DNA of 64,000 nt from Nematopogon swammerdamellus (taxonomy: Eukaryota > Arthropoda > Insecta > Lepidoptera > Adelidae): the NCBI GenBank assembly GCA_946902875.1, contig OX336349.1, positions 14,221,891-14,285,890 on the forward strand, read 5' to 3'. Made by a program: the position numbers and the translations under genes. Below are positions 25,828 through 62,020 of the stretch, in pieces; within the stretch, counting starts at the first letter, position 1, and each line of letters starts with the position of its first letter. A model generated the notes under the pieces. It ran no database searches, was not told the origin of the DNA, and worked only from the letters and a program-made list of their open reading frames with translations.

Positions 25828-28823
25828 TTACTGTTGCGACAGGTAATGTTCCCTCAGGCGTGATTTGAAAATGTGCACACTCTGTGCACTGCGTATGGGC
25901 TCAGGCAATGCATTCCAGAGCCGCGGAGCATGAACAGAGAATGAGCGAGACATAAATTCAGACCTGTGTTCCGGGATTAATAATAAGTTGGTTGATGTTG
26001 ACCTCAGAGGGACTCCATGGCCAGCAAGAAGAGAGAACATATTTTTTATGTACGTGGGTGTCACGGGATTCGTTAGAGATTTGTACAGAAAAGTTAATAT
26101 GTGTAGATTGCGTCGATCCCGTATTTTAAGCCACTTGAGTTCCTTCCGGTAGACTGAGACATGGTCATATTTTCTTAGATTAAAGATATATCGAATGCAG
26201 GCATTCTGCATCCGTTCTAATTTATCAACTAATTCGCTCTTTAGATCTAAATAACATATGTCTGCATAATCAAGAAGGGGGAGTATATATGCTTGAGCAA
26301 GTTGAATTTTGATATGTTTGGGTAAGAACCTTTTCATTTTACGTAGCGAGTGTAAGCTGTAGTAAACCTTTTTGCTAACATTATTAATATGTTCCTGCCA
26401 CGTAAGATTTTCATCCATGAAAAGACCCAGGTTTTTTACAGATTTTGAGTAGGGAATTGGTGTGCAGTCAACCAGGAGTGATGGTAGGGCGGATTTGTCA
26501 ATCTTTTTTGTTAACTTTCGACTGCCAAGAATTATTGCTTGTGACTTTATCGGATTTATCAACACACCAAACCGCCTAGACCAATCACAGATGCAACGCA
26601 AGTCTCGGTTCAATTATTCTATGGCGGCACTAATCGCATCTGGCCTTGTGTGAATGTATATTTGCATGTCGTCGGCATACATGTGGTACTTAGAGAGCAG
26701 AGTTGTCGTAATCGTTTTAATAAAAATGCAAAAAAGTAGTGGGGACAAAACTCCTCCCTGCGGCACCCCAGAGGTCAGATCATGCCAAACCGACTGTTCA
26801 GCGCCATTCTTTACTGCCTGGTTACGACCAACAAGGTAGGTAGAAAACCAGGACAATACGACATCACACATCTTGAGAGAGCGTAGACGAGCCAGCAGTA
26901 TAGAAAAGTCAACCGTGTTAAATGCATTGCTGAAGTCAACCATTACTGTAACCTTTCTATCATTCATGGCAGCTCGCACGTCATCACTTATTTTCAGCAA
27001 AGCGGAAGTCGTACTGTGTCCTGGTTTGAAACCGGATTGAAGCGGATCATGCAAATTATTAGATGTAATAAATTGCGCCACCTGAGTCTGTACCAAACGC
27101 TCTAGCACCTTGGATAATACGGGCAGAATGGAGATAGGACGATAGTCTTTAGGCACTGAAGGCTTGCTATTTTTAGGCAGTGGTATGATCAGGGCTCTCT
27201 TCCAGATAGTTGGAAACGTTCCAGTGGACAGCGATGCATTAAATATATGAGTTAATATGGGCAGTATAACGTTAATAATCAGCATGAGCATTGTGATGCT
27301 GACTCCATCTCCACCAACCGATTTAGATTTAACTGCAGTGATGGCGTCATTGACTTGTTTAGAGGAAACAGGCATAAACTCAAATACCTCTATATTGGGT
27401 AGGTCTTCATTGTGAATAGTCTCGACGGCTTCAGTCCTAGATGCCTCGCTTAGGGCTGCTGGTGGAGTAGCAAAATGACGATTGAGATCGTTTATATCAA
27501 GATCTATCTTGTGCTCACCTTTTTTGTCTTCACAAGCACCCACAGATCTTAGAAAAGTCCACAGATTTGTATCATTATTTTCGGTAATGTGCTTGTAAAT
27601 ATGGGAGCATTTAGCGTTTCTACAAGACTGAACGCATCGATTACGCAATACTTTGTAACTGTCCCAGAGTTCAGCGGTAGGGTTTTTGTTGTGTTTTGCC
27701 TTTGCGTCATCTCTGGCAGCCATTTCACTGCGTATCTTGTCCGTAATCCAAGGTGCCGGAAGCTGCCTCAGCCTCATGCACCTAATGGGAGCGTGTATAT
27801 CGAACAGATCTATCAGCATCCTGTTAAAGGCATCGACCTTGTCATCAATGTTGTCCATACTACGTAACTGTTCCAATCAGTTGTGGCTGCATCCTTAAGC
27901 AGTTTTTCTGGTTCAATCTTTTTAAAATTTCTCCGGTAAACAATTCGAGGCTTTGCCTTAGGAGTTTTAATTTTATAAGAAACATGTATCAAGTCGTGAT
28001 GAGAAAAAGCAGGTGCTGCGAGACGGCCAAAGTTAGAGACGTGTTCCTTTGATGTGACCAAGGCCACATCCAGGTGTGAATGTGTGGTGTGTAAATGGTA
28101 AGTAGGACCTAATTCTAGACGGTTGAGATTAAGTGAGGCAATAATATTAAGGAGTTTGGACGTACGCGCGTCACCTTTAGCCAGGCAGGTGTTTAAATCA
28201 CCCAGTAGGACAGTGTGTGCATAATTAGTAACATGTGTAGATAAGACTGTTTCCAGTTCAGAAAAATAGTTAGTTTTTGGGGGACAGTAAATCACAACCA
28301 AAAGCATCTTTACGTAATTCACCTGTGCTTCCATCACAATATACTCCGCGCCTTTGTAATGAGGGTCAGAAAGAGCTAGAATTTTGTGCTTAAAATCCTC
28401 CCGTAGGTAAACTGCTACCCCTCCACCGTGACACCTCAGCCTGTCGTGTCTGATTAGTGCATACCCCGGCAGCGAGAGAGACTTTGATGACAATGAGGGC
28501 TTGAGCCACGTTTCGCTAATCGCTATCGCGTGCACTGGGAGATTTACAAAAGAGGCCAGGAACTCATCCTTGTGGGCGTCCAGGCTCTGGGCATTGATGT
28601 GCACCGCTTGAAAATGCTTTGCGTCATTTTGAGATAAAATGTGCTTAAGTTTGCAGTTTAAATCAGCCTGTCTCCCTGCGGGAGAAACTGAACTAGCCGG
28701 AGACGAAGACGCCAGTATAAACCCGCCGTCCTCACTCGATATGTCAGAAACATATTCGTCAGAGGAATCATCGCCTGCCGCAGAGTAAAATGTCTCGTCG
28801 GAATCTCCACCATCACTTGCCAT
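25828..28823 (-). pseudogene. LINE ORF2: AP-type endonuclease and reverse transcriptase
   Basis: The frame starts at the ATG at 28821-28823 (MASDGGDSDETFYSAAGDD), preferred over an in-frame ATG 12 codons upstream that adds only a Phe-rich run. The endonuclease shows HINAQSL, AISETWL, GGGVAVYLRED, LLGDLNTCL and SHLDVALVT. The reverse transcriptase (about 27876-26614) shows PKDYRPISILPVLSKVLERL, SGFKPGHSTTSALLK, VMVDFSNAFNTVDF, SGVPQGGVLSPLLF and the catalytic YADD. The C-terminal part (26613-25828) has KNLGLFMDENLTWQEHI and PLLDYADICYLD. There are two lesions: a one-base frameshift within 27813-27876, and a single in-frame TAA at 26614-26616 after the YADD. Otherwise the roughly 1000-residue protein is complete, so it was active until fairly recently. 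Confidence 0.9.
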
Positions 28824-28859
28824 TGTAAAACAAGAAAAAGAAAAAAAAAACAACAACAA

Positions 28860-29253
28860 AAGAATGATAAAATAATCTAATAAAAAAGAAACCTAAACAA
28901 AAACTAAAAACAATATAAAAGAAAAACAAAATTTAATCACAATAAAGAGACAAAATCTCTAAACAAATAAACAGAAAAAAAAATTTCAACAAGATTTTAA
29001 ATAAATATGAGATTTCAGTAAAGACCTGCTGTATTTTTAATATGCTTACATTTAGATCATTTAGTTGTCATGAACTCATGAGAAGTTAATGAAAATAGAC
29101 ATTCAACTAGGTAGGTATGTATGTTTCTATATGTGTTCATAGTTTATAGGTATGATAGAAAGTACTGAAGTAGGTACCTTCCTAGATATCCATAAACACT
29201 GTCGACATAGTTGAGAGACCAATAAAGAAATAGAATTAATGCAACTTTGCGTT
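28860..29253 (-). other. LINE inter-ORF sequence, 3' part
   Basis: A-rich on the plus strand just outside ORF2 (28825-29000), then unremarkable. It ends at cgtt, the target duplication of the LTR element. Confidence 0.45.
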
Positions 29254-31602
29254 TGCGACGAACTTGCCTCCCACCAAAGTATATTTTGTATTTATACTTC
29301 ACCTGATAGGTGTTGTCGAATAATTATTCCGAAATTCCACGCTTCCGCGAGTAACCTCTAAAATAAAACATGGCCTGCTTTTAGCATTCAAGTGATCTCT
29401 AGGTAAACTCAAGCAATGTATACATACGTATACACTGAATTAAGTGTAGATGGACCCTGTATCTTCCTCTCTTCGAGGAAGCGTTGTGTAACCGTATAAC
29501 CCAGAGTACTAACTCAATCCCTAGCTTTCTATCCTAACCTTTGTTCTTCGAATAATATTCTAAATACATATGTAATTTTCTGCCTAAGTCCGCCTCTCCT
29601 ATATCACTGTGTCTCTTCCATCACATTGTAATTGTCTGTATTCTCTCCTCCCAGAAATTGTGTTAACCAGTAATTTTCAAATTATTCGAACAATTTCCCC
29701 CCGGAGGGGGAAGTAAGGAGCTCCACGAGTCCGGGTTTCCTCACCCGGGCTCTCCACGCTCCTCACAGTGGCCATCATCCATATAGGGCTGCTTTACTAC
29801 CAGCAGCTCTATTTTGTATACCTAATGGCCCCCTTTGATTCCTATCCTGTGAAGAAACTGTTTCTCTTAGGAAGAGATTTAAAATGAAATTCGTGGTGTA
29901 ATGTGGATGATTTAGGGCCCCTACGGACCCCAAATCCTAAAGGCGTGCGTGTGTGTGTAAGTGTGTGTGTGGTCCCTATCCTAACCTCGTAGTACTTCGT
30001 CCGACGGGCTCCGCCTATCGAAAGAAGGCTACCACAGGTTTCCTCCTCAGACGGTCAGCTCAGCTTGCACCGGTCCTTAGAGTACCGCCACCTCTTCGCC
30101 AGATAGAATAGGTATCGCTCTAACAGATCATAACACTTTGGACCTCTCCCCCTAGCAGGACTAAGGAGAACCACTGTGGGGTATTTACCTGGCCTTCCTA
30201 GTACCTAACCTCAATAAATACTACACACTATGGTACTACTCACTCCCACGAAGCGAACCCTCTCTCCCTTGCAGAACTAAGGAGAATCAATTCACACAGC
30301 TACATGGCTAACCTACCAATATGAATTTAGTGTTTGAAGAACCTAACTACCCACGTTATAATTTGATAGTTTAGCCAGAATTCCAGTTGCTCTTCGACCT
30401 TATGTTACGTCTTCTTACCACGAGGCATTTTCTCGTGATATCATAGAGAATGAACTGAATCTTGTGCAAACAAGCGTGTATGCTTATTCAGCATAGCTAG
30501 CGTTGCCACCCAACATTCCATCGAAAGGAAAAGAACCTCGCATGAGTGCGCGCGCATGCATATTTCAGCGTACCCGCAACCCACATACAACGTTCCAAGG
30601 AAGAACCCTGTGAGATCGTGCGTGCATGCATATTTCAGCGTACCCGCTTCCCTCACAACATTCCATGAAAGAACTCTGCGTGAGTGGGCGTGCATGCATA
30701 TTTCAGCGTACCCGCTCCCTCACCCAGTGCTCCAAAAGGGAAAGAGCCCTGTAATAGTATGCATGTATGCATATTTCAGCATAGCTAGCATCCCACACAG
30801 TGCTCCAGTGATGGTCCATATAAAAATATTTCACATCCCTAATACTAGCAAATAATTTCTGAAAAGCCAGTATTGTTTCCAAAACTAGCCCAGCCACCAA
30901 AAGAAGACTTCAAGACAATGCAATTTAATAGAACTGGTCGAATTGCAACTAGAAAACTCCAAAAATATCGCGCGGCGTCCGAGACTCACCGAAGCGTTGA
31001 TGCCGAAAAACAATGGCGCTCGATGCGACTTAGAGATGACCGGGGCTCAGGCACGTTGTTCCCTCGAGGCTCGCAGCTGCAGAAAAAGTGCTCCTACCGT
31101 GTTACACGCCCTTAAATAGCCTCGCTTTCTTACTCCCACTCTTACCCCCATGACCAATCGGAAATCATCCCTAACATCGTTTCCGCGTCTCCCATTGGTC
31201 GACCAATCACAATGCCTGAAGCAATTTTCCCTTAAAAATGCGTTCCATATTTCCCTAAAACCTTCAGTAACTAATCTCTGAAAAATGCTACGAATTCACA
31301 AAAGTAGATGTAATACAGTCAATTCGTCCTATATCTTACTGCACGCCGACGTATAATACTTATCTATCATCATCTGTCGCTTATACGGTGTTGCTAGCTA
31401 TTCCTGTTCAAAATGTATGCAAGTTGTATTATCTGCGCCTGATTACATGCCACCCGCTACAATTTATACGCAACGCGGTCTCTTTGCTATACTCACTACC
31501 CAGGCGCTAAACTAACTCCTACGCCTTATAACATTTTACCAGCCAGCCTTCATACGTCCTATTGCTAGCTATTTTCATTGAGGTAGGTTGTGATTCGTCA
31601 CA
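29254..31602. repeat. Left long terminal repeat, 2349 bp
   Basis: Contains a microsatellite (gtgtgtgtaagtgtgtgtgt, about 29948-29971). An internal minisatellite has four copies of gcatgcatatttcagcgtac at 30554, 30624, 30692 and about 30765. It also has CCAAT boxes at 31153-31157 and in the palindrome ATTGGTCGACCAAT at 31194-31207. A TCAGT at 31264-31268 could act as an insect initiator. The open frames here are shadows of the minisatellite. Confidence 0.92.
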
Positions 31603-34600
31603 GTCGCCCGCCTAGAGGCGATTTTCGCGGCATGGGAAAGAATCTATTTTCTCCTTCCATGATCGCGACTAGCGTCTCTACACCATACTATAGTCTATGT
31701 CTGTCTGTCGCCAACATATATTAATGCTATGGCTGCAGTACTGCTTTTCGTAGATGTGCCTCTGTTAGGGTGTTCGTTCCCTCTCCAGAAGGTCCGTAGT
31801 ACCAACAACTTCTTCTAATAGGGTGTTTGTCCCCTTACCAGAATGATTGTGGCATTTTATTTTGGGTGCTAAGCAGTCCCGACCACACAACACAACATAT
31901 GGGCATTCGTCCTAGTATAGTCAGGTTAGACTCATCAGAAGCTCAAAATGAAATTACTAAACACTTAATACCCTGTTTCATGCCATAGAAAGATTTCCCA
32001 CCAGCTCAGGAAACCTGTAGTCTTACCCCTCGCTGGTAGGGCAGGATCAGTACTTCTCTCCAGGGAGAGCGCACAACATACCTTGCCACCTCCGGTTTAG
32101 ACACGCCGCACATTCCAACACCTTAACCTTTCTAGTTATAGACAGGAAAACTGGGAAATTATTTCTGAGAAAATTTTAAATTGACTTTGCTTCTTCCGAA
32201 TCATAACCTTTGCTAACTAACTCACCCGTTGACAAATGGATGGGCCCAGTCTGATTGTACACGACTCTACTTTAATCTCATCCAACATTGCTCCGGTCAA
32301 TGGTTCAAATTGCTATGTTCTATCACTTTCCATAGACCGGAAAATGTCACCACTAACTTTAAACGCTCCCTTTTTGCTTAGTGTAGAACGCCCTCGGTAC
32401 ATGATAACATTTTCCCTCCCGAGTGAGAACAAATTAAGGTCTCGATGAAATGTAAAGTTCTGCACTATGGCTTTGTTCACCTCACATTTTTCAAGTCCCA
32501 TTCGTGTGTTCAACGCACTGAGTTTACGTTCACATTCTTTTCGGAGCAATGTATGGGAAATGCAATAAAAATCGAAACCAAAGTGTCCTGATTCATTGTA
32601 AAAGTCCCTTCAGGTCAGAGCTCTGCTCTCATTAGAAGGAAGTTTCACTACCGAGTACAGACACTATAATACCCAATGGTTTACTCGCGTATTTCTGTAT
32701 TTACACAATCATCCAAACCCAGCATCTACCAACAAGTCTATTCTAAGTCTTAAAACCTTTTGCTCATAATTATCAATAACTCAACTCCCCCACGCCGAAC
32801 AGGATTCATTCCTATTTGTCCGTAGCGGGTATTATTCATTAGAGCTTTCTATTTCCTAGCTATATATATGCTATAGTTTCTACTGTTTCCGTCCTTTAAT
32901 TAACCCCAGAATAATACTAAGAATCTATATCTACAACTGTACCTCCTAACTCGTCCTTACTTCAGGACAGCATAATTTAACTCGCCAACCTACACACGAT
33001 CCGCGGCTACGTTCGATGCCCTAATTACCAATTTTACTTCATTTTCATACTCTATTCGCCCGCCTGACTATGTAAAATCCGTGATTAATCTATGAACACC
33101 GTATTAACTGACTGTTTTAACTGATATTTTATCCGAAATATACCCTTTGTACACGCTCTATTTATCCCTATATAAACCATGACCCCAATCCCTAGTCTGT
33201 CGCTCAAGACTCCCTTCTACCTACTCCTCTTGTACCAGGTGGACGGAACCCTGTCGTTAGTAATATTTCACCGTCCCCTTCCTATAGTACCTTTTGAACG
33301 GAACCCCATCAATAGTAATATTTTTCTATAACCTTTATTCCAAACTCCTCTCTTATCCTATTTTACTATATTCTATCTACGTAACAGCCCAAGCAATACG
33401 CCCGCCAGACTATGTTTACTCTATAGCTCGTCCAACAAATGTCGATCGTTCCTTAATGTGTTCCCTGCCTATATTGCATATAAGAAATATAAATAACCTA
33501 CCTAGTGACCTACCTCGCCCGCCGGACTCTATCCTATCCTATGACAACTACGTGGCTTTGTAATCTCATGGGGCTAACCTCTAACCTAACCTTACTGCTC
33601 TATTATCGCTCACTCCTTCGTTATCACCCGGCATTCCTTACTCAGGTTCCTGCTCCCTTTGTTCCTGCTTATTTATCCTTGTTATGTTGCTCTACTCTCA
33701 CCAAATTCCTAAGCCATTACCTATGACCAATCGGTTCAGTAGACCAAACGTTACCTTCTCCACATCTATCTTCATGTACCCGATTTTACTAAATTGTGGC
33801 ATCTCATACCAAACTTACCGAATTTTACCAAACGGAGTCAAATCGTACCACCTTACCGGATTTTACCAAACTGAATCAGTTTCAATTCTGAAATTTCAGT
33901 AGTGAACAGTGAATAAATCATTATTCTACTACTGCTCTAAGTTAAACAGTATCGCACTGTAGCAATACTAACTTAACAACGTAGGGTCCTACCAACTAGA
34001 CGATCACGGCCCTCCCTAAACCTATGTTCTACACGTACAGATTCGCATTCCTTTAAGACTGCGATAAGAAGGTAGTTTTTATCCTTGATCATTGCCATAC
34101 CTATTTTATTCTATAACATTTATTTTATTTTCTATCTAATTTTAACCTATTCCATTTTCTCGCCCGCCTAAACATATGCATTCCGTAACCCTAAAGACAA
34201 CAAGTATGCTCTTGTTACGGCACAATATGATGCGCGTACGCCGTAAAGGAGTCGTCCTTTCAGTTACCAGATAAATAGGAAATCTCTACTGTACGTCAAA
34301 CCAAACTTATCCCAATTCTTCGCCTTCCAAATTCCGCGTTCTAAATAATAGTATACATGCATAACATAAAGGTTAGTACGATTGTTGAAGACTCACCGTT
34401 CGCCCGCCAGATTCGTCGTATCCTCCATTGCTCATCCTCCCATAAAATTAATGTATCATCCCCAACCCCAACCTCTCCTAAATAACTCACCACCCAAAAC
34501 AAATGCATAAAGATCCGCTCAACATTACCCGCCTTCAGCTAGCACGATGATAAAACTTTTTTACACAACACTCGTCAACTCATACAGCATTTATCAACCC

Positions 34601-36369
34601 GACGTACAATACTTTAAACAGTTTGAGATACTTATAAAATACCCCGCAATGTCAAGGCGATGTGTGTAACAGTATTCTGCTTCACACAACCCGAACAATA
34701 AAACCAGATTCTTATTTTATAAGTAATTTTATATATAACTTGAAACATTTTACCACCTGTTCGATCATAATATGAGACAATAGGACCTTCTAATAAGAAT
34801 AGATACAGGGCACCGTTTAAATGGTCCAGTGTACCTAATAAAACGCCAAGTTTAATTCGTATATATATATTTTTTTTCGATCTTGATTACAAATTAATAA
34901 TAATAATGCAATATTGCCCTGCAATATTGCAATCCGCATGTGCATCGAAGAATATTCGTTGATTTTGGTATGCGTAGACTTATGTAAACCCCACTATAAA
35001 TAAAACGTTAACATTAACCGCACTCAAGTACCTATTTATTCAAAGACGAATAAGTATTTTCCTGAAAAAGAAAAATCACAATTAAAACAATATTCAAATC
35101 CTCTACCTCTTATTTGGTCTAATAATTAATTATAGAATTGATATTTAAAAAAAATATATATATAGTTAAGTCCATGTAAGTATACACCCTATAAACACGT
35201 GATTAGTCTATGTAAATATGTGATTTAGTATTCATCCACGAAAATAAATTATTTAACATAAATAGATAAATAATAATTCCCGACCGTTCGGACACATCTC
35301 ACAGAAACATGCACGGTACATAATTTACCTGAGGCGTAAAGGCGGACTTATCCCATTATAGGAATTTCTTCCTGTCAATCCCTGGATGGTTGAGAGTAGT
35401 AGCAAAATATTTCATCAGCATCTTATTTAACTATAAGTCCCTGTTCTATCATTTTAAAATATAATATTGCGAGATACACTTACCATTTGTTATTCTTTTG
35501 GCAATTTTTTTTTTCTTTTCTCTTCTTACTCTTTTTTTTCAGTAGGATATTATTAAGATGTACTCAGCTCACTCACAAATACTTAGCCAGATCATAAACC
35601 GAAGAGTGACGAACCACCCGTAGTCCGGGGTTCGAAGCCTGTCCCCGCGCATCCACAACAATCCCTACCGACGCAGGTAACCACGTAATATGCATGTACG
35701 CACGGATACGCAAGCATAATCATACCATTCAGCAAGTATGCACACAATTACATATGCGCACGAACGCCTGCACGCATCCACGCATGTACGCACGCAATTA
35801 GATATGTAAGTAAACAATTAAATATACGCTCACGCACCCAAATACCAATGTATTCGCGATTGCAAAAAGCTGGTCTACACAAACAAACATATCCCTAAGT
35901 ACGCAAGTATCATTCGTGCACGCGAACAGACATGCCTGTGCTTGTGAGGAAAAATGTCCTCTATGCAAGAGCAGAAGTTCAAAGATAAGAAAGTAAATTA
36001 CTAAAAATAACTAATAATTAACACAATAAATCACATCCAATTCATGATAGTCTATCCAATAATCAAACCTCGAGTTGAACCTGTCACACAATATTTGATA
36101 TTTTGTTTGACCGTGTGTATTGGTGTTTATAAGAATAAAGTTTCTCCTTTTTTCTTCCCTTTTAAATCGTGGGAATCAAACGAATAGCGAATTCGTTCAC
36201 TACTGCCAGCATCGAGTGACAGCGCTGCACGGTATAAATTTATAATTACTTACAATATCTCTAATAGCCTATTACCGTGTCCTTGATTCGCGTTAGGTGC
36301 AATATACATAACACACTTCCCTTACATTCCGAAAGAATAAAGGCATTACTAGAGTATAGACCCCTGAAA

Positions 36370-37250
36370 TATTCAAAATCCGAAACACTTTGAAAGTTGG
36401 GAACTCCTGAACTCAAAACATATTGAAAGTCGGACTCCTCCCTAAACATTCCTAAAATTAAAATATTTCTAAAGTCGAGAACCCTAAACCATTCCAAATT
36501 TGGCACTATTCTCGAAAGTCTGAGGACCGCTTAATCCAAAATACTTGGAATTTGAAACCTCCCTTAATAATCTGGAAAATGAAAGTAATTTTCTAAATTT
36601 GAGAACCCTAAACATTCAAGATTTGAAAATAATTTTGAAAGTTTAGAATGTCTGACCTCAAAATATTTTTGGAAGTTGAGACCTCCTTTAAATATCCTGG
36701 AAGAATAAAATATTTTTTAAAAAATTGAGAACCCTAAGATGTTTAAAATTTGAAAATATTTTTCAAAAATAAGAACCGGTAAGTTCAAAATTTTTTTTTT
36801 TTTTTTTGAAGTTAAGACCTCCCTTAAATATCCTGAGGAAAATAAAATAATTTTCTAAAGTTGAGAACCCTAGACTTTCAAAATTTGAAAATATTTTTGA
36901 AAATTAAGAACCGCTAAGTTCAAATATGTTTGGAAGTTAAGACCTCCCTTAAATATCCTAAGGAAAAATAAAATATTTTTCTAAAGTTGAGACCCTAGAA
37001 TTTCAAAATTTGAAGATATTTTTGAAATTAAAAACCGCTAAGTTCAAACTATTTTTGGAAGCTGAGACCTCCCTTAAATATTCCGGAAAAGTAAAAGTAT
37101 TTCTTAAAGTTGAGAACCCTAAAATATTTAAAATTAGAAAATATTCCGAAAGTTGAGAACCCCTGACTCCGAAATATTCTTGGGATGTTGAGGCCTCCCT
37201 TAAATCAAAAATATTTTTGTAAATAAAGTTGTAAACCCCTGACATGTCAC
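36370..37250. repeat. Degenerate tandem array, unit about 120-126 bp
   Basis: Recurring phrases ctaaagttgagaacccta, aatttgaaaatatttttgaa, aaccgctaagttcaaa and gacctcccttaaatatcct. The ctaaagttgag phrase recurs about every 123-126 bp between 36851 and 37100. Confidence 0.8.
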
Positions 37251-37690
37251 GATTTTGAAATGGTTCGAAATCCCTGACACTAACTTAATTTGGAAACCTT
37301 TGAGAACCCCTGACTCATCATGAATTTGAAAAAGTTCGAAATCCCTGACAATATAAATTTGAAAAAGTTTGAGCACCACTGGCTTATCGTGAATTTGAAA
37401 AGTTCGAAATCCCTGACAATCTAAATTTGTAAAAGTTTGAGCACCCCTGGCTTATCGTGAACTTGAAAAGTTCGAAATCCCTGACAATCTAAATTTGGAA
37501 AAGTTTGAGCACCCCTGACTTATCATGAATTTGAAAAAGTTCGAAATCCCTGACAATATAAATTTGGAAAAGTTTGAGCACCCCTGACTTATCATGAATT
37601 TGGAAAAGTTCGAAATCCCTGACAATATAAATTTGGAAAAGTTTGAGCACCCCTGACTTATCATGAATTTGAAAAGGCTTACAACCTAAA
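37250..37690. repeat. Tandem array, unit 68-71 bp
   Basis: The phrase gttcgaaatccctgaca starts at about 37263, 37334, 37402, 37470, 37539 and 37608 (spacings 71, 68, 68, 69, 69), alternating with aaatttggaaaagtttgagc and cacccctgacttatcatgaa. Weaker copies continue to about 38035. Confidence 0.88.
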
Positions 37691-40512
37691 TTTGGAAAAG
37701 GTTGAGAACTCCTGATATAATACCAATTCGAAAATATATCGAAAGTCTAGACCTCTGAATCATTGCGAAATTCAAAAATGTTCTAAGAACCACTACTCTT
37801 TTCCAAAGTTGAAAGGTTTGGAAACCCCTGACTTATCGTGCCCTTGTAAAATGTTTACAACCCCCTACATATCATGAATTCGAAAGGCATGACACTTACC
37901 AAGCCTAAAAGTTTGGAAACTGCTTATATATATGTATCTGAAAAAGTTTAAAATCCCTGACCTATAAATTTGGAAAAAGGTTTGTAACCCCTGACACTTC
38001 CCTTTAGAAAAGTTAGAAACCCCTGACACCACCTTGTAGCCCGCACAATAACCAAACTTAGTTATAAAATAATTTGCAAAACGTGGTGATCGGCGTTGTG
38101 CTGCAATTCACCAGAGCTCCCACCGCACAACATCAATCACTCCGCCCACCCCGACTGTTTTCTTTCAACGCGTGCAACATGTACACATGTATCAAATATT
38201 ATTTATAAATTAGTCTAATTAATTAAACAAACACATTTATGGGCAAATCTAAAACCACTCACTCGATATGGATCACAAATCGACAGGCTTAATTCGACCT
38301 CCAATCGCATCAACACTCACCAACTGGCCCTCTCACCTTTTGACACCTATACATACGACCGCAACCTAAAATCGAAACCTGGACCTCTGTCATGGCACCT
38401 AATTCCTATACTCTTTATAATCCATTCCTTCCGCATTCCGCACGGACAACAATCATGCACGACCGATAAAAATTAAATATCTCGATCGGCACGTTCTCCG
38501 ACATTGCACTTGCTCCCTCCTAACCGTTTTAACTCTTACATTCCCCGCACGCATTCCTTGAGCAACTGGAATCCCCATTCCTCATACCAACCAATCAGTT
38601 CCAAAATAAACAAACTTAACAATCCATTCCCTATCCTATCAATAAACAAACACTACATTCAAGCCCAAAACCACTCACTCGAAATGAACCACGTATTCGG
38701 CATGTTCACTAAGAGCCTCTATTCGCCACACACACACAAAAATCTGACCAAGACTCAACCTCACGACCTAACCAACATTGTACATGGCACCTAATTACTT
38801 CCACTGGTCAACTTGTACACCATGACCTTCGTTTACCACTAACCTAATCTAGTAAGTACCATATCGCCCACACACGCAAAGTCAGACCTAGACACAACTT
38901 TACAACTAACCTTCACTTGTACATGGCACCTAATTAGTCACATCAATTAACTGGGATCCCCTAACCTTAACCTACCATCACCTACTAGTAGGTGCCATAC
39001 CGTCGCTCGCTACTAATTCGCGAAATACCTACTTTGGAGCCTAAAATGCACACCTTATCACTACTACACAAATCATTAACTAAACATCCATTATACATTT
39101 TCAAAATGCTATGTTTCGTTCTTCTCGCATTCCTCTAAAATGAAATAAAGATTCGAATCTTTTTATTCCTCGGCGACAATCTCAACCAAAATTAAATGAG
39201 TCTGTTGGAACCCGGTCAAACATAACCACTCTTTTCAAACACACATATTTTACGGTTTTTTTATTTTACAAAGGAAGCTTACACCCCAACTAACTTCTTT
39301 TCCACAAAAACAACTAGAAAATTCCCTTTATTGACCTCAAACTGGCCCCGATAAACTATTTCGCGCGCGAGTGTACCTAATTATTACACATGACAAGATT
39401 ATTTTCGAACATAACTTCAGTGTTTTAGGTATGAAGCCCTCCGCGCTCAGTTGGCGTGCCTTAACTTAAATAGAATGGCTATCCAATTTTACAACTAAGG
39501 TTTTCATAGAATATTCTTACTACAATATTGTTGATTTTAGTACATTCTAGGATTCTAAATTAATTGGCTTTTGGGCTTATAGCACAATTTTTCCGATAAC
39601 TCATATAAAAAAATTTTTCCTCTTCCTGCTATATCTCGGTGTACCCGGAATAAATTATTGATTTTAGTTTCACAATCTCTGGATAAAATATTTCCCTTTG
39701 GCCCCACCTTACTTCTACGAAGTTGCTAACATTCCGCTTAAAAATATGCCTCACACCATTCATACATACCATTCCCCTAACTTCCACTTTGTTTAGTCTA
39801 TCACCTCTCAACCCGACTACATTCTTCGTGCAAACAGTTTTTTTTTCTATCACGGCGCTGCTCATTCTAGCCAATAGCGAACGCCATACCGCACCGGCGC
39901 TCACATCCCATTGGTCAAAATTGGTTTTCACTTAAATATTTCTAGATGTCCGCAGAACAATGATAATGAACTTCCTAGAAGGAAATGTAAGCAATTTTCT
40001 TTTACGAACTCAAAGATGAATCTCTAGTCGACTTTCTGGTGACAATTTGTTCACGTTAAAATCGGTTTGCTAGCAACATTGTCGGCAAATTGTAGACAAT
40101 ATTCCTGTAAATTAACTAATTGTACACAGACTGCACTCGCGCCGGAAAATGAAATATGTACTCACTCTCAGCTTCAAGCGGCGAAACCTCCCGCCTCGTA
40201 GGCGGGAGTCCAAATCTCTTCTCTCGCGAAACTGCCAGTCAGCATCGCGTTCCACGAACCACTTTTCACGCATTTCCTCACCGAATTCCACACTTAATCA
40301 CTTTCCCGGTATCACTTCCTATAACGCTATTTACTTATATCGCTACTCCCTATGAGTTGGATTTTTTCCTATCGCTTTTGAGTATATAAGACCCCTATTA
40401 TTGTCCTGAACTACCGCAACGAACTACATTTTTCTTCCATTTTTCCCTCTTTTTTTTCTGAACCCTAGGTATCCTAGATTTAGGTAGGAACTATCCTGGA
40501 CTTAGGCACCAC

Positions 40513-42863
40513 TGCGACGAACTTGCCTCCCACCAAAGTATATTTTGTATTTATACTTCACCTGATAGGTGTTGTCGAATAATTATTCCGAAATTCCACG
40601 CTTCCGCGAGTAACCTCTAAAATAAAACATGGCCTGCTTTTAGCATTCAAGTGATCTCTAGGTAAACTCAAGCAATGTATACATACGTATACACTGAATT
40701 AAGTGTAGATGGACCCTGTATCTTCCTCTCTTCGAGGAAGCGTTGTGTAACCGTATAACCCAGAGTACTAACTCAATCCCTAGCTTTCTATCCTAACCTT
40801 TGTTCTTCGAATAATATTCTAAATACATATGTAATTTTCTGCCTAAGTCCGCCTCTCCTATATCACTGTGTCTCTTCCATCACATTGTAATTGTCTGTAT
40901 TCTCTCCTCCCAGAAATTGTGTTAACCAGTAATTTTCAAATTATTCGAACAATTTCCCCCCGGAGGGGGAAGTAAGGAGCTCCACGAGTCCGGGTTTCCT
41001 CACCCGGGCTCTCCACGCTCCTCACAGTGGCCATCATCCATATAGGGCTGCTTTACTACCAGCAGCTCTATTTTGTATACCTAATGGCCCCCTTTGATTC
41101 CTATCCTGTGAAGAAACTGTTTCTCTTAGGAAGAGATTTAAAATGAAATTCGTGGTGTAATGTGGATGATTTAGGGCCCCTACGGACCCCAAATCCTAAA
41201 GGCGTGCGTGTGTGTGTAAGTGTGTGTGTGTGGTCCCTATCCTAACCTCGTAGTACTTCGTCCGACGGGCTCCGCCTATCGAAAGAAGGCTACCACAGGT
41301 TTCCTCCTCAGACGGTCAGCTCAGCTTGCACCGGTCCTTAGAGTACCGCCACCTCTTCGCCAGATAGAATAGGTATCGCTCTAACAGATCATAACACTTT
41401 GGACCTCTCCCCCTAGCAGGACTAAGGAGAACCACTGTGGGGTATTTACCTGGCCTTCCTAGTACCTAACCTCAATAAATACTACACACTATGGTACTAC
41501 TCACTCCCACGAAGCGAACCCTCTCTCCCTTGCAGAACTAAGGAGAATCAATTCACACAGCTACATGGCTAACCTACCAATATGAATTTAGTGTTTGAAG
41601 AACCTAACTACCCACGTTATAATTTGATAGTTTAGCCAGAATTCCAGTTGCTCTTCGACCTTATGTTACGTCTTCTTACCACGAGGCATTTTCTCGTGAT
41701 ATCATAGAGAATGAACTGAATCTTGTGCAAACAAGCGTGTATGCTTATTCAGCATAGCTAGCGTTGCCACCCAACATTCCATCGAAAGGAAAAGAACCTC
41801 GCATGAGTGCGCGCGCATGCATATTTCAGCGTACCCGCAACCCACATACAACGTTCCAAGGAAGAACCCTGTGAGATCGTGCGTGCATGCATATTTCAGC
41901 GTACCCGCTTCCCTCACAACATTCCATGAAAGAACTCTGCGTGAGTGGGCGTGCATGCATATTTCAGCGTACCCGCTCCCTCACCCAGTGCTCCAAAAGG
42001 GAAAGAGCCCTGTAATAGTATGCATGTATGCATATTTCAGCATAGCTAGCATCCCACACAGTGCTCCAGTGATGGTCCATATAAAAATATTTCACATCCC
42101 TAATACTAGCAAATAATTTCTGAAAAGCCAGTATTGTTTCCAAAACTAGCCCAGCCACCAAAAGAAGACTTCAAGACAATGCAATTTAATAGAACTGGTC
42201 GAATTGCAACTAGAAAACTCCAAAAATATCGCGCGGCGTCCGAGACTCACCGAAGCGTTGATGCCGAAAAACAATGGCGCTCGATGCGACTTAGAGATGA
42301 CCGGGGCTCAGGCACGTTGTTCCCTCGAGGCTCGCAGCTGCAGAAAAAGTGCTCCTACCGTGTTACACGCCCTTAAATAGCCTCGCTTTCTTACTCCCAC
42401 TCTTACCCCCATGACCAATCGGAAATCATCCCTAACATCGTTTCCGCGTCTCCCATTGGTCGACCAATCACAATGCCTGAAGCAATTTTCCCTTAAAAAT
42501 GCGTTCCATATTTCCCTAAAACCTTCAGTAACTAATCTCTGAAAAATGCTACGAATTCACAAAAGTAGATGTAATACAGTCAATTCGTCCTATATCTTAC
42601 TGCACGCCGACGTATAATACTTATCTATCATCATCTGTCGCTTATACGGTGTTGCTAGCTATTCCTGTTCAAAATGTATGCAAGTTGTATTATCTGCGCC
42701 TGATTACATGCCACCCGCTACAATTTATACGCAACGCGGTCTCTTTGCTATACTCACTACCCAGGCGCTAAACTAACTCCTACGCCTTATAACATTTTAC
42801 CAGCCAGCCTTCATACGTCCTATTGCTAGCTATTTTCATTGAGGTAGGTTGTGATTCGTCACA
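40513..42863. repeat. Right long terminal repeat, 2351 bp
   Basis: Matches the left repeat throughout. The only difference I saw is one extra GT in the GT microsatellite near 41220, and the open frames in the two copies translate identically. Confidence 0.92.
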
Positions 42864-42867
42864 CGTT

Positions 42868-45500: not shown

Positions 45501-46280
45501 TGGCAGAGCTAAGTCCGCGTAAGGGGGTAGATAACCACCCAAACTCTGCACCTGGATCGCCAGCTTTTTGGCGGGTCGTTCCATCTTCGTTACCATCGAT
45601 GGCTCGAAATCGGACGACTTTCCATTCAACGCTGGTGTTCCGCAGGGCTCTGTGCTGTCGCCTACGCTTTTCTTAATCTTTATAATCTACTGTCCTTGGA
45701 CATGATACACAGCTATGCAGACGACAGCACGGAGCACGAGGGCTATGTTAAGGAATGGAAGAAAGAGTAGAGATTCGCGGCACAGGGAGGCTCAACGCCC
45801 AATTGTTGATAAGGTCGATAACGTTCTCGGAAAACCGACTTCCTAAAAAAAGTAAAACTAAAAAAACTATTTAAAATAAAAATATAAAAACCGCCTTCAA
45901 AAATATATGAAATAAAAACCTAAAAAAAAAAACGAACCCTAGAGTTGAAGGCGGTGCTAAAAAGGCTACACAAATCACAAAGGATATTATCATCCACTCA
46001 TGTTTTCTTTCATGCATCATTTTTGCTTGCTTTAGCACCGCCTTCAACTCTAGGGTTCGTTTTTTTTTTAGGTTTTTATTTCATATATTTTTGAAGGCGG
46101 TTTTTATATTTTTATTTTAAATAGTTTTTAGTTTTACTTTTTTTAGGAAGTCGGTTTTATGTTTTTTAAAACTTTTTTTTTTATTTCACAGTTTTTTTAG
46201 TAATTTTTTGCTATTAATGTACTCGGCGGAATTCCGCCTCGCGTTCCAATCCGATCTTGACCCAATTAAAATAGGACCAC

Positions 46281-46636
46281 GTCAGCTTCGATAGCTCAGT
46301 GGTGCAGACAGTCAACTGTCGCTATTGAATGTTAAGCAACGCTGGGTGCGGTCAGTACTTGGATGGGTGACCGCTGACCGTGGGAGGCTGACCGAGGTTC
46401 GGATTCCTCGTAAAACTGTAAGTCCCTTCCCTCCTAATCTTACTTGGTGGTAGGGTTTAACCTGCCCGGGTTGGTACCACCGCACTGAATTAAACGTCGG
46501 TCGAAACGGCTATGTAAATAGTTTGTGTTTTCCGACCAGTTCAGTGTAGTCAGCACGATCAAAGGGGGAAGCACTGACATGGCACTTAGTTTACCCGGTG
46601 TTATGGGCTGACATCACGGACGTTGTAGGTGATGTT
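46281..46636 (+). mobile_element. 5S-SINE captured in composite copy A (tail missing)
   Basis: The head reads gtcagcttcgatagctcagt, then gttaagcaacgctgggtgcg and acttggatgggtgaccgc (5S rRNA-like). The body is normal, but the terminal gccaaccgtgtcag-type tail is replaced at gtgatgt by the tandem array, exactly as in copy B. Confidence 0.85.
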
Positions 46637-47205
46637 GCAGAACTTAGTAGAATGGACAGACATAAACGTGTTACGGAACCCTACTTTTATTATAAAATAA
46701 CCGTCGGAGGACCTTGGTTGAAAATTGTGAAATTTAGTAGAACGGACAGATATACATTTGTTACGGAACCCTACTTTTATTATAAATAACCGTCGGAGGG
46801 CCTTGGTTGAAAATTGTAAAACTTTGTAGAACGGACAGACATACATTTGTTACGGAACCCTACATTCATTTTGAAATAAATGTTAAATTTTGTAGAACGG
46901 ACAGACATGCATTTGTTACGGAACCCTACATTCATCTTGCAGAACTTAGTAGAATGGACAGACATAAACGTGTTACGGAACCCTACTTTTATTATAAAAT
47001 AACCGTCGGAGGACCTTGGTTGAAAATTGTAAAATTTAGTAGAACGGATAGACATGCATTTGTTACGGAACCCTACATTCATTTTGAAATAAATGTTAAA
47101 TTTAGTAGAAAAGACAGACATGCATTTGTTACGGAACCCTACATTCATTTTGCAGAACTTAGTAGAATGGACAGACATAAACGTGTTACCGAACCCTACT
47201 TAACA
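46637..47205 (+). repeat. Tandem array with 'gttacggaaccctac' units
   Basis: At least eight copies of the phrase, each preceded by agtagaa-ggacagacat, in short (about 60 bp) and long (about 115 bp, with ccgtcggagg-ccttggttga) versions. Copy B has only three. The frames here (e.g. 46807-47271) are by-products. Confidence 0.88.
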
Positions 47206-48759
47206 GTTGCACTCCGGGAGTGCCGGCAGATCCCGTGCCACTCTAACTTAACCCTTAATGCAATGACTTAAGGTTTCATTTTAAAAATGACGCTGACGCG
47301 ATGTCGCGAATTATACATTTTTTACCCACCTAAAAAAGTGCCAAGCGCCGCTAAAGAAGTTTTCACTTCAACAACCTCAGGGTTATCCCCTTTCAAATAA
47401 AAAAAAAGAGAATTTTCAAAATCGGCCCACAATTGACGGAGTAATCGCGTAACAAACATCCAAAAAAAGAAAACATACCGTCGAATTGAGAATCTCTTAG
47501 GTCTAAAGTAAATTGCTCGTGAAGACAAATGCAACGAGCCCAAACACGATGGGTTTGTCATGTGTAGTTTAGGAGTTCCTATGGCCACCTTCTGTCTCCA
47601 TCATCAGACCAGCTCGATGGTACTCGTACCATAATAAATTAAGCGCACCTGGCCGGTCGGAAAAGATAAAAAATTTCAAATTTAGAATATTCATGAAACA
47701 AGGGTCCGAATATGTATCACTAGTATATCGATTCATGTATTTCAACAGGACAGAGAAAATTTCAAAATATTAGGTATTTAATACTTTTTAGTTCTTTTTT
47801 TTTTTGTTTTTTGGAAATCGGTTTAATATTTTTTAAAACAGTTTTTATTTCATTCTTTTTAATAATATTACATAAAAAAGAATAATCGAAATCGAATAAT
47901 CGAAATCGATTGAAGTGGTACAGAATTATTCGCCATATGTGTCAGACTGCAAATTGCTGAATAAGTCCACATCACAAAAGTTTTGCTGAAGGTAACCACA
48001 CACCATACTAATTTATCAAACTGAAAATTGCCGAAAACGACCACATCACAAGTTTTGCTGAAGGTAACCACACACCATAGTATTATGCTGATTTTTCGAA
48101 AACCACTGAACCAATTTCAATAAAATTGAAATGGGACCACCTCGGAAGTATGACCTAGCTAATAAAAAAATAATTTTCTAAATCGGCCCTCAATTGACGG
48201 AGAAATCGCGTAACAAACATACAAAAAAAAAAAAAAAAAAAAAAACATACAGACGAATTGAGAACCTCCTCCTTTTTTGGAAGTCGGTTAAAAAAGTAGC
48301 TATATGGGGCCAGGAGAACCTTGTCGCCTTCAACGTTAGCAAGACTCAGTGCTGCGCATTATCTGCTGAGGTCGATCCCTTTCCTTTCCAAGCTAGTTTC
48401 CATGGCAGCGTCGTACCTGTCTCGGAACACCTGGACCTCCTGGGCACCACTATTTCCAAAGACGTGGGTTTCCGGCAACTAATCGAGTCTAAGGCCAAAA
48501 CTGCATCCAGAAAATTGGGAGTACTTTTCCGCAATCGGCGGTTCTTCTCACCGGCACAACTATTCCCGCTGTACAAAACGCAGATTAGGCCGGTGATGGA
48601 GTACTGCAGTCACATCTGGGAGGGTAGTCCCCATTATCTGCTAGCATCCTTGGACTCGATACAGCGCCGAGCCATCCGTCTTGTTGGTGACCCAAAACTT
48701 GCAGATGGTCTGGAGTCCCTGAGTCACAGACGATTTGTGTGTTCGCTTAGTCTGTTTTT

Positions 48760-58406: not shown

Positions 58407-60622
58407 TTTTTAACCGACTTCCAAAAAAGGAGGAGGTTCTCAATTCGTCTGTATGTTTTTTTTTATTTTTTTTTTATTTTTTTTTTTTTTATTTTTTTGT
58501 ATGTTTGTTACGCGATTTCTCCGTCAATTGAGGGCCGATTTAGAAAATTCTTTTTTTGTTAGTTAGGTCATACTTCCGAGGTGGTCCCATTTCAATTTTA
58601 TCGAAATTGGTTCAGTGGTTTTCGAAAAATCAGCATAATACTATGGTGTGTGGTTACCTTCAGCAAAACTTGTGATGTGGTCGTTTTCGGCAATTTTCAG
58701 TTTGATAAATTAGTATGGTGTGTGGTTACCTTCAGCAAAACATTTGTGATGTGGACTTATTCAGCAATTTGCAGTCTGACACATATGGCGAATAATTCTG
58801 TACCACTTCAATCGATTTCGATTATTCGATTTCGATTATTCTTTTTTATGTAATATTACTAAAAAGAATGAAATAAAAACTGTTTTAAAAAATATTAAAC
58901 CGATTTCCAAAAAACAAAAAAAAAAAAACTAAAAAGTATTAAATACCTAATATTTTGAAATTTTCTCTGTCCTGTTGAAATACATGAATCGATATACTAG
59001 TGATACATATTCGGACCCTTGTTTCATGAATATTCTAAATTTGAAATTTTTTTATCTTTTCCGACCGGCGTTTAATTTATTATGGTACCTGGCCAGTACC
59101 TACTGTACCGAGTACCATCGAGCTGGTTTGATGATGGAGACAGAAGGTGGCCATAGGAACTCCTAAACTACACATGATAAACCCATCGTGTTTGGGCTCG
59201 TTGCATTTGTCTTCACGAGAAATTTACTTTAGACCTAAAAGATTCTCAATTCGACGGTATGTTTTCTTTTTTTGGATGTTTGTTACGCGATTACTCCGTC
59301 AATTGTGGGCCGATTTTGAAAATTCTTTTTTTTTTATTTGAAAGGGGATAACCCTGAGGTTTTTGAAGTGAAAACTTCTTTAGCGGCTCTTGGCACTTTT
59401 TTAGGTGGGTAAAAATGTATAACTCGCGACATCGCGTCAGCGTCATTTTTAAAATGAAACCTTAAGTCATTGCGTTAAGGGTTAAGTTAGAGTGGCACGG
59501 GATCTGCCGGCACTCCCGGAGTGCAACTGTTAAGTAGGGTTCCGTAACACGTTTATGTCTGTCCATTCTACTAAGTTCTGCAAAATGAATGTAGGGTTCC
59601 GTAACATATGCATGTCTATCCGTTCTACTAAATTTTACAATTTTCAACCAAGGTCCTCCGACGGTTATTTTATAATAAAAGTAGGCTTCCGTAACACGTT
59701 TATGTCTGTCCATTCTACTAAGTTCTGCAACATCACCTACAACGTCTGTGATGTCAGCCCATAACACCAGTGCCATGTCAGTGCTTCCCCCTTTGATCGT
59801 GCTGACTACACTGAACTGGTCGGAAAACACAAACTATTTACATAGCCGTTTCGACCGACGTTTAATTCAGTGCGGTGGTACCAACCCGGGAAGGTTAAAC
59901 CCTACCACCAAGTAAAATTACGAGGGAAGGGACTTACAGTTTTACGAGGAATCCGAACCTTGGTCAGCCTCCAACGGTCAGCGGTCACCCATCTAAGTAC
60001 TGACCGCACCCAGCGTTGCTTAAAATTCAATAGCGACAGTTGACTGTCTGCACCACTGAGCTATCGAAGCTGACGTGGTCCTATTTTAATTGGGTCAAGA
60101 TCGGATTGGAAAGCGAGGCGGAATCGCGAGGCCGAAGGCCGAGCGATTCCGCCGAGTACATTTAGCAAAAAATTACTAAAAAAAACTGTGAAATAAAAAA
60201 AAAGTTTTAAAAAACATAAAACCGACTTCCTAAAAAAAGGAAAACTAAAAAACTATTCAAAATAAAAATATAAAAACCGCCTTCAAAAATATATGAAATA
60301 AAAACCTAAAAAAAAAAAAACGAACCCTAGAGTTGAAGGCGGTGCTAAAGCAAGCAAAAATTATGCATGAAAGAAAACATGAGTGGATGATAATATCCTT
60401 TGTGATTTGTAAAGCAAGCAAAAATGATGCATGAAAGAAAACATGAGTGGATGATAATATCCTTTGTGATTTGTGTAGCCTTTTTAGCACCGCCTTCAAC
60501 TCTAGGGTTCGTTTTTTTTTTTTTAGGTTTTTATTTCATATATTTTTGAAGGCGGTTTTTATATTTTTATTTTGAATAGTTTTTTAGTTTTCCTTTTTTT
60601 AGGAAGTCGGTTTTATGTTTTT
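58407..60622 (-). mobile_element. Composite element, copy B (inverted relative to copy A)
   Basis: Reverse complement of 45831-48294 with the same order: non-coding part (58407-59520), shortened tandem array (59530-59730), 5S-SINE (59731-60077), gcggaatcgc-type segment and foldback hairpin (about 60215-60620). Copy B has a 66-bp duplication in the hairpin loop (agcaagcaaaaa-tatgcatgaa twice) and an extra ggccgaaggccgagcg near 60125. It lies in the probable channel intron. Confidence 0.82.
59731..60077 (-). mobile_element. 5S-SINE captured in composite copy B
   Basis: The minus strand reads gtcagcttcgatagctcagt, the 5S-like segment and the body, then switches to the tandem array at gtgatgt, the same junction as in copy A. 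Confidence 0.85.
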
Positions 60623-61796: not shown

Positions 61797-62020
61797 GTCA
61801 TCGACCCGATGGCGAAATGGTAACGCGCTGGCGGCTCAAGCCGGAGTTCCAGGTTGTAATCCTGGTGGGGACGTATTTTCTCTCTTAATTTTTAATAGCT
61901 TCCAAGCTGAGGTCACAATGACTTATGCTTGTGTTCAACGAGCAAAAAAAGCTTGTGTTGAGCCAACTTATCGTCTAACTAATATTTCATATAGCCAACC
62001 GTGTCAGTTTCCATAAAAAA
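61797..62020 (+). mobile_element. tRNA-headed SINE with 5S-SINE tail
   Basis: The head resembles a tRNA gene: A-box-like gatggcgaaatggtaacgcg and B-box-like caggttgtaatcctgg, about 35 bp apart. The end, tatagccaaccgtgtcagtt and tccataaaaaa, is the tail of the 5S-SINE, while the middle is unrelated. Confidence 0.65.

Follow-up and report, generated by a model that had tools for sequence, protein, structure and literature searches.

The 64,000-nucleotide stretch of Nematopogon swammerdamellus DNA analysed here (assembly GCA_946902875.1, contig OX336349.1, positions 14,221,891 to 14,285,890 of the forward strand), called the window and supplying all coordinates unless another source is named, contains at 29254-42863 a 13.6-kb element bounded by long terminal repeats (LTRs), the focal element. 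It very probably belongs to a young family of large retrotransposon derivatives (LARDs) that is copied by gene-bearing relatives, with template switching between co-packaged RNAs. Mosaicism between the LARDs and these relatives is the strongest result of the analysis, and the mosaics point to shared reverse transcription. A first-pass annotation, made from the letters alone, had described a very young, non-coding LTR element with an autonomous partner elsewhere in the genome. What it observed stood; it missed that the element is oriented on the minus strand and that its body has been replaced.

The focal element consists of an 8.9-kb interior between two LTRs of 2.35 kb, at 29254-31602 (2349 bp) and 40513-42863 (2351 bp). 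Their alignment shows 99.915% identity, with 0 substitutions over 2349 sites and a single gap event of 2 bp. The LTR tips, TGCGACGAA and TTCGTCACA, are inverted copies of each other but for one of nine positions, and a CGTT target site duplication (TSD) lies on both sides, at 29250-29253 and 42864-42867. These repeats, tips and duplications are as first annotated, and the very young age proposed for this copy is supported, because its LTRs differ by no substitution.

Does the interior encode anything? Its longest stop-free frame is 105 aa, against a median of 114 aa in 300 mononucleotide shuffles, and coding capacity is not above chance. No retroelement protein was matched in Pfam by any of the 19 interior frames of at least 70 aa (E<=0.1); only sub-threshold matches appeared, to EPTP (0.011) and DP (0.092), both for a frame in a tandem array, and to PRMT_C (0.096), and one LTR frame, the one of 13 run on Pfam, gave a sub-threshold CCER1 match (0.085). 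Tblastn placed neither the open reading frames (ORFs) of the gene-bearing relatives described below (gag-like, pol, BTB and a 143-aa ORF; E<=1) nor 58 related pol proteins (E<=0.01) on the focal element. A hidden, decayed pol was thus found neither by Pfam and tblastn nor by blastn and tblastx against the partner, in agreement with the absence of recognisable gag and pol in the first-pass annotation. Rfam returned no structured RNA at E<=0.5. Terminal-repeat retrotransposons in miniature (TRIMs) have interiors below 4 kb, and the 8.9 kb found here excludes the focal element from that class; LTRs, a TSD and a non-coding interior above 4 kb are those of a LARD.

We searched the own genome (699 Mb in 39 contigs) for LTR copies and scored the best 40 of 678 candidates, ranked by likeness to the focal LTR. 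By position these 40 matches resolve into 19 pairs, one solo LTR (C18:15334438-15336788, with its own TTAG duplication) and one 3' LTR without a mate among the 40; labels of the form C1, C6, C9, C12, C15, C18 and C25 denote the contigs that hold relatives. The pairs comprise 15 LARDs, one heavily deleted LARD on C9 and three long elements, termed partners, so that 16 of 19 are of the same non-coding type. Six of the LARDs, the focal element included, were compared in full, and the other nine were typed by one 600-base probe each. In the ten elements available in full (focal included), LTR pairs differ by 8 substitutions over 23,496 sites, 0-2 in each. At a rate of 2.9e-9 per site per generation, as in a butterfly, the mean age would be near 60,000 generations and that of the focal copy below about 220,000. 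Long, near-identical repeats are a classic source of assembly artefacts, and either such an artefact or a segmental duplication could mimic LTRs, as the first-pass annotation had itself cautioned. Perfect 4-bp TSDs at 19 of 19 pairs on many contigs, together with 0 similarity matches among 20 flanks of about 200 bp from the ten elements, leave this explanation next to no probability.

The three long elements measure 20.9 kb (C6), 23.2 kb (C12) and 19.7 kb (C1). With the LARDs they have in common the LTRs, the primer-binding site (PBS) region, the leader, the tandem arrays and the tail; their LTRs are 1.6-1.8% diverged from the focal LTRs, and where the focal element has 33555-36257 they carry about 8 kb (more in C12). 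An open 318-aa ORF, gag-like by place, precedes pol in all three. The pol frame runs uninterrupted for 1200 aa in C6 and, in C1, for 1162 aa to the end of the fetched piece. On the C6 frame Pfam recognises a G-patch, an aspartic protease (RVP), a reverse transcriptase (RVT_1), RNase H, an H2C2 zinc-binding domain and an rve integrase, which is the protease-reverse transcriptase-RNase H-integrase order of Ty3/gypsy elements. The gag-like and pol frames overlap in the -1 frame, and the heptamer GGGAAAC directly before the gag-like stop (L017:3221-3227) fits a slippery site for -1 frameshifting into pol. Between C6 and C1, 1161 pol codons differ by 14 synonymous and 6 nonsynonymous changes (P=3e-5 against an expectation of one synonymous change in four), which shows purifying selection on pol. 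Among the best 120 of 123 database matches listed (7992 candidates scored), the top pol match reaches 49%; those with names are from Heliothis, Parnassius, Plutella and Helicoverpa at 42-49%, all other named ones being at or below 33%. Such matches by themselves suggest that the host is lepidopteran.

A third ORF, about 1.4 kb downstream of pol (L018:1150-2112, also in L021 and L022), encodes a BTB/POZ domain (Pfam, E=1.6e-23). Its closest relatives among the best 120 of 167 proteins are lepidopteran tramtrack/fruitless isoforms, at 47-48% identity over about half the query. Its N-terminus aligns with tramtrack/fruitless, the FxLRWN motif being degenerate (SSLSWG, with only L and W kept), and Pfam finds no DNA-binding domain in it. 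We regard it as a putative captured Tramtrack-like gene. No env was matched by Pfam in the partner, where the third ORF is the BTB gene and a 143-aa ORF has no Pfam match, and the env ORF that marks an insect endogenous retrovirus is missing.

Gag-like and pol frames that are open in two copies as far as read, within elements whose termini are those of the LARDs, support the identification of the long elements as the autonomous partner that had been predicted; the genome search thus turned up both the further copies and a gypsy element with matching LTR ends and PBS region. Might another, unseen gypsy element mobilise the LARDs, the long copies being recombinants or relics? There are only three of them, and in one pol is interrupted. 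Yet the gag-like and pol frames of C6 are open, and those of C1 likewise as far as pol was read; pol has been under purifying selection between the two; substitutions within the LTR pairs number 1 in C6 and 0 in both C12 and C1; and the long copies have exchanged sequence with the LARDs. A mobiliser of this kind is accordingly very improbable.

The minus strand is the coding strand of the focal element, and 40513-42863 is its 5' LTR, because a PBS-like start, a G-rich edge at the 3' LTR (29254-31602) and the coding frames of the partner all agree. On the minus strand, the edge of the high-coordinate LTR reads TTCGTCGCA-G-TGGTGCC..., a PBS-like start, and the low-coordinate LTR is bordered by the G-rich GGCGGGCGAC (31603-31612), which resembles a polypurine tract (PPT) without being a classical purine run and is identical in 10 of 10 elements. 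A plus-strand reading was rejected: its LTR edges, inspected by eye, lack PBS and PPT, and the ORFs of the partner run the opposite way.

To type the LTRs, we used 45 sites fixed between five LARDs and the three partners, the focal element and a LARD termed C6-8.31M being left out of the definition. The focal LTR carries 26 LARD-type sites (29564-30369) followed by 19 partner-type sites (30468-31064), with one switch; in 100,000 shuffles so small a number of runs never arose. The switch lies within 30369-30468, LARD-type on the low side and partner-type on the high side, and its equivalent in the 5' LTR, located by offset, at 41630-41729, where a comparison by tiles agrees. Read in the coding direction, the focal LTR would be a partner U3 joined to a LARD R-U5, which is expected if minus-strand strong-stop DNA made from LARD RNA had jumped to partner RNA. 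The interval contains an initiator-like TCAGTTC at 30458, judged by the initiator consensus, and the U3/R boundary may be placed there. The match is a weak one, TCAKTY occurring three times in the LTR and twice within the switch interval.

The exchange is not confined to one LTR. C6-8.31M combines a LARD body and a C1-type leader end with LTRs that show the partner variant at each of the 45 sites and cluster among the partners in a tree (100/100). Of the 23 informative sites in the tail, 19 separate the focal element from LARD C15 and 4 separate it from partner C6. Over 76 leader sites the focal element equals the LARDs at 38122-40116, while its last 13 sites (40228-40505) match partners C1 and C6. 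In partner C12, LARD variants occupy 40228-40505, its LARD-type leader sites extending from 38688 to the PBS. Leader and tail thus appear to hold further switches, and exchange apparently ran both ways, since C6-8.31M has partner LTRs and C12 a LARD leader.

Could integrated LARD and partner copies have been homogenised with each other by gene conversion or ectopic recombination, instead of by template switching? Mosaics occur in LTR, leader and tail, and any recombination process leaves mosaics. However, the focal switch is identical in two LTRs that show 0 substitutions between them, TSDs are intact and flanks dissimilar, and, as a weaker point, the switch falls near the initiator-like motif, where strand transfer would be expected. 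We consider this explanation unlikely, although conversion may have occurred before the last transposition.

The interior of the LARDs is likewise not what an emptied partner would leave. Between 33880 and 36256 (limits approximate), about 2.4 kb occupies the place of the partner's coding block of about 8 kb, and blastn and tblastx against the fetched partner pieces found in it only one 19-bp blastn match and a weak tblastx extension at 36227-36295. This LARD-specific segment is present in 6 of 6 LARDs in full and, at 94-99.8% by the 600-base probe, in all nine further pairs; the C9 copy retains about 130 bases of it. An ordinary gypsy copy with an internal deletion, passively amplified, would account for LTRs, leader and tail that are about 88-99% alike with the partner. 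It would not account for a middle of about 2.4 kb that has no homology to the coding block beyond the 19-bp match and is found in 15 of 15 LARD pairs examined, and we rate it somewhat less probable even than gene conversion. Origin by simple deletion is unsupported, since DNA without detected homology fills the place of the coding block. Judged by these alignments, the LARD body is a replacement of the partner's coding block and not a mere deletion.

Around this segment, all on the minus strand, the element is organised as in the partner. In coding order, the leader (37680-40493) is followed by two tandem arrays, one of 69-bp units repeated 6.4 times (37235-37675) and one of 125-bp units repeated 5.9 times (36454-37205), both in common with the partner. 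Beyond the LARD-specific segment come a stretch of short repeats spaced about 38 bp apart (33804-33871), which is an array in the partner, and the 3' tail (31613-33803), which the partner also has as far as about 33555; for 33556-33776 it gives no match.

How would such an element be primed? The PBS region (40494-40511), one base from the 5' LTR, reads TGGTGCC, five variant bases and CCAGGAT. In partner C1 all 18 nt of the PBS are complementary to tRNA-His, for which we used a sequence that ARAGORN types as such. It is the only perfect one of the ten elements: seven, the focal element included, have TGGTGCC and the five-base variant, C25 begins with TAGTGCC, and in C9 the site goes on as TGGTGCCGTGA. 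A 35-nt match (33/35) to the 5' half of tRNA-His lies at 33976-34010, inside the LARD-specific segment, and coincides with the deletion junction of the 7-kb C9 copy (C9:16621854-16629238), in which the PBS is fused at GCCGTGA to this internal site. The fusion looks like a plus-strand transfer that landed at the wrong site. On the plus strand, CGCCCGCC occurs six times in the focal element (31605, 33057, 33399, 33516, 34161 and 34401), once at the place of the PPT, and at four sites in the fetched pieces of each of the three partners; these may be extra start sites for plus-strand synthesis.

Taken together, we propose that an ancestral Ty3/gypsy copy of about 20 kb lost its gag-pol-BTB block, gained about 2.4 kb of other DNA, and retained the LTRs, the leader with its two tandem arrays, the PBS region and the 3' tail. 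RNA of the derivative would be packaged in particles that the gene-bearing relatives build; a host tRNA, likely tRNA-His, would prime its reverse transcription, and integration would create 4-bp duplications. When both RNAs occupy one particle, reverse transcriptase would switch between them, so that LARDs gain pieces of partner LTR and a partner gains a LARD leader. The sequences themselves show the structure, the youth, the further copies, the ORFs of the partner and the mosaics. From youth, copy number and mosaics we infer mobilisation in trans; transcription, co-packaging, the identity of the tRNA and the direction of each exchange are likewise proposed, and in the same sense the partner may be called active and the LARD trans-dependent.

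Several observations weigh against this account. Only 40 of the 678 candidates were scored, a sample biased towards LTRs like the focal one. For the 318-aa ORF, Pfam gives no curated gag domain and a comparison with solved structures no match at E<=0.1, and pol of C12 is interrupted by roughly 2.5 kb. Across its three copies the BTB ORF shows 0 synonymous and 1-3 nonsynonymous differences, too few to judge, with no purifying selection seen. The focal PBS fits tRNA-His in its first 7 bases and then only in CCAGGAT beyond the five-base variant. The coding strand of the LTR has no AATAAA that would place the R/U5 boundary, and one ATTAAA at 30929. In leader and tail, LARD-type and partner-type are majority labels, as the partners differ among themselves. 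Finally, mosaics might also stem from gene conversion between copies in the genome.

Elsewhere in the window, endonuclease and reverse transcriptase frames of a non-LTR retrotransposon lie on the minus strand at 26614-28892, about 360 bp from the focal insertion. A long tandem array occupies 2282-4725, with units of about 68 bp by self-alignment offsets and copies about 82-90% alike; 45970-48294 and 58407-60410 are inverted copies of each other, 93-94% alike, with short internal repeats. ARAGORN calls a tRNA-Glu (ctc) at 61802-61874.

Onsen of Arabidopsis is a Copia-type element, and the pararetroviruses of grasses are plant viruses without LTRs. How do these and other known systems compare? 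The model LARD/partner pair is Dasheng/RIRE2 of rice, in which Dasheng, like the focal LARD, is a large non-autonomous LTR element with termini matching an autonomous gypsy partner (PMC9033089); here the host is an animal, the partner bears an additional BTB gene, and the mosaics are resolved to single bases. In Culex quinquefasciatus, 38 non-coding LTR families (cqUNK) resemble the present one in being from an insect, with LTRs more than 98% identical, a PBS, TSDs, internal tandem arrays and lengths up to 14.6 kb; a master copy was not found there and LTRs reach at most 931 bp (Table 2), whereas the present family has an identified partner and LTRs of 2.35 kb (PMC3286476). In Onsen, too, RNAs packaged together recombine pairwise, and recombinant LTRs result, but the burst is induced by heat and the parents are fellow family members rather than a non-coding derivative and its helper (PMC5668417). 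Recombination homogenises the non-coding sequences that non-autonomous pararetroviruses of grasses share with their autonomous partner (PMC5491270). TTK-type BTB domains of arthropods have an N-terminal FxLRWN motif (PMC11426971); the partner's third ORF aligns with tramtrack/fruitless, but its motif is degenerate and a Pfam DNA-binding domain is lacking. Insect endogenous retroviruses also have an ORF downstream of pol, at the place of env, which here is BTB with no env match.

LARDs, a LARD/partner pair in rice and non-coding insect LTR elements with tandem repeats in Culex are thus already known. In the literature searched, which leaves out most subscription papers and all bioRxiv preprints, we found no insect LARD whose partner had been identified and, under BTB and retroelement, no BTB gene carried by an LTR element; the term LARD itself is in use in moth genome papers. 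Relative to that literature, the animal LARD/partner pair, its sequence exchange and the proposed BTB capture are new.

What might the BTB gene do? Mod(mdg4), a BTB protein of the host, serves the Su(Hw) insulator of Drosophila, and it is through this protein that the gypsy insulator acts. By analogy, the partner's protein might be a retrotransposon-encoded chromatin factor that acts on the tandem arrays of the leader, the LARD keeping these arrays as cis targets without the gene. We regard this combined proposal as a long shot. If it held, the LARD would be a parasite of a parasite, drawing on its partner for copying machinery and for a private insulator or expression switch alike.

The non-coding LTR elements of Culex had no known helper when described (PMC3286476); here a helper is at hand that also bears a host-type chromatin domain. 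Helper and parasite are both young and present in a single assembly, where what they exchanged can be followed nucleotide by nucleotide. The cis sequences for packaging and priming may therefore be narrowed to what both still have in common.

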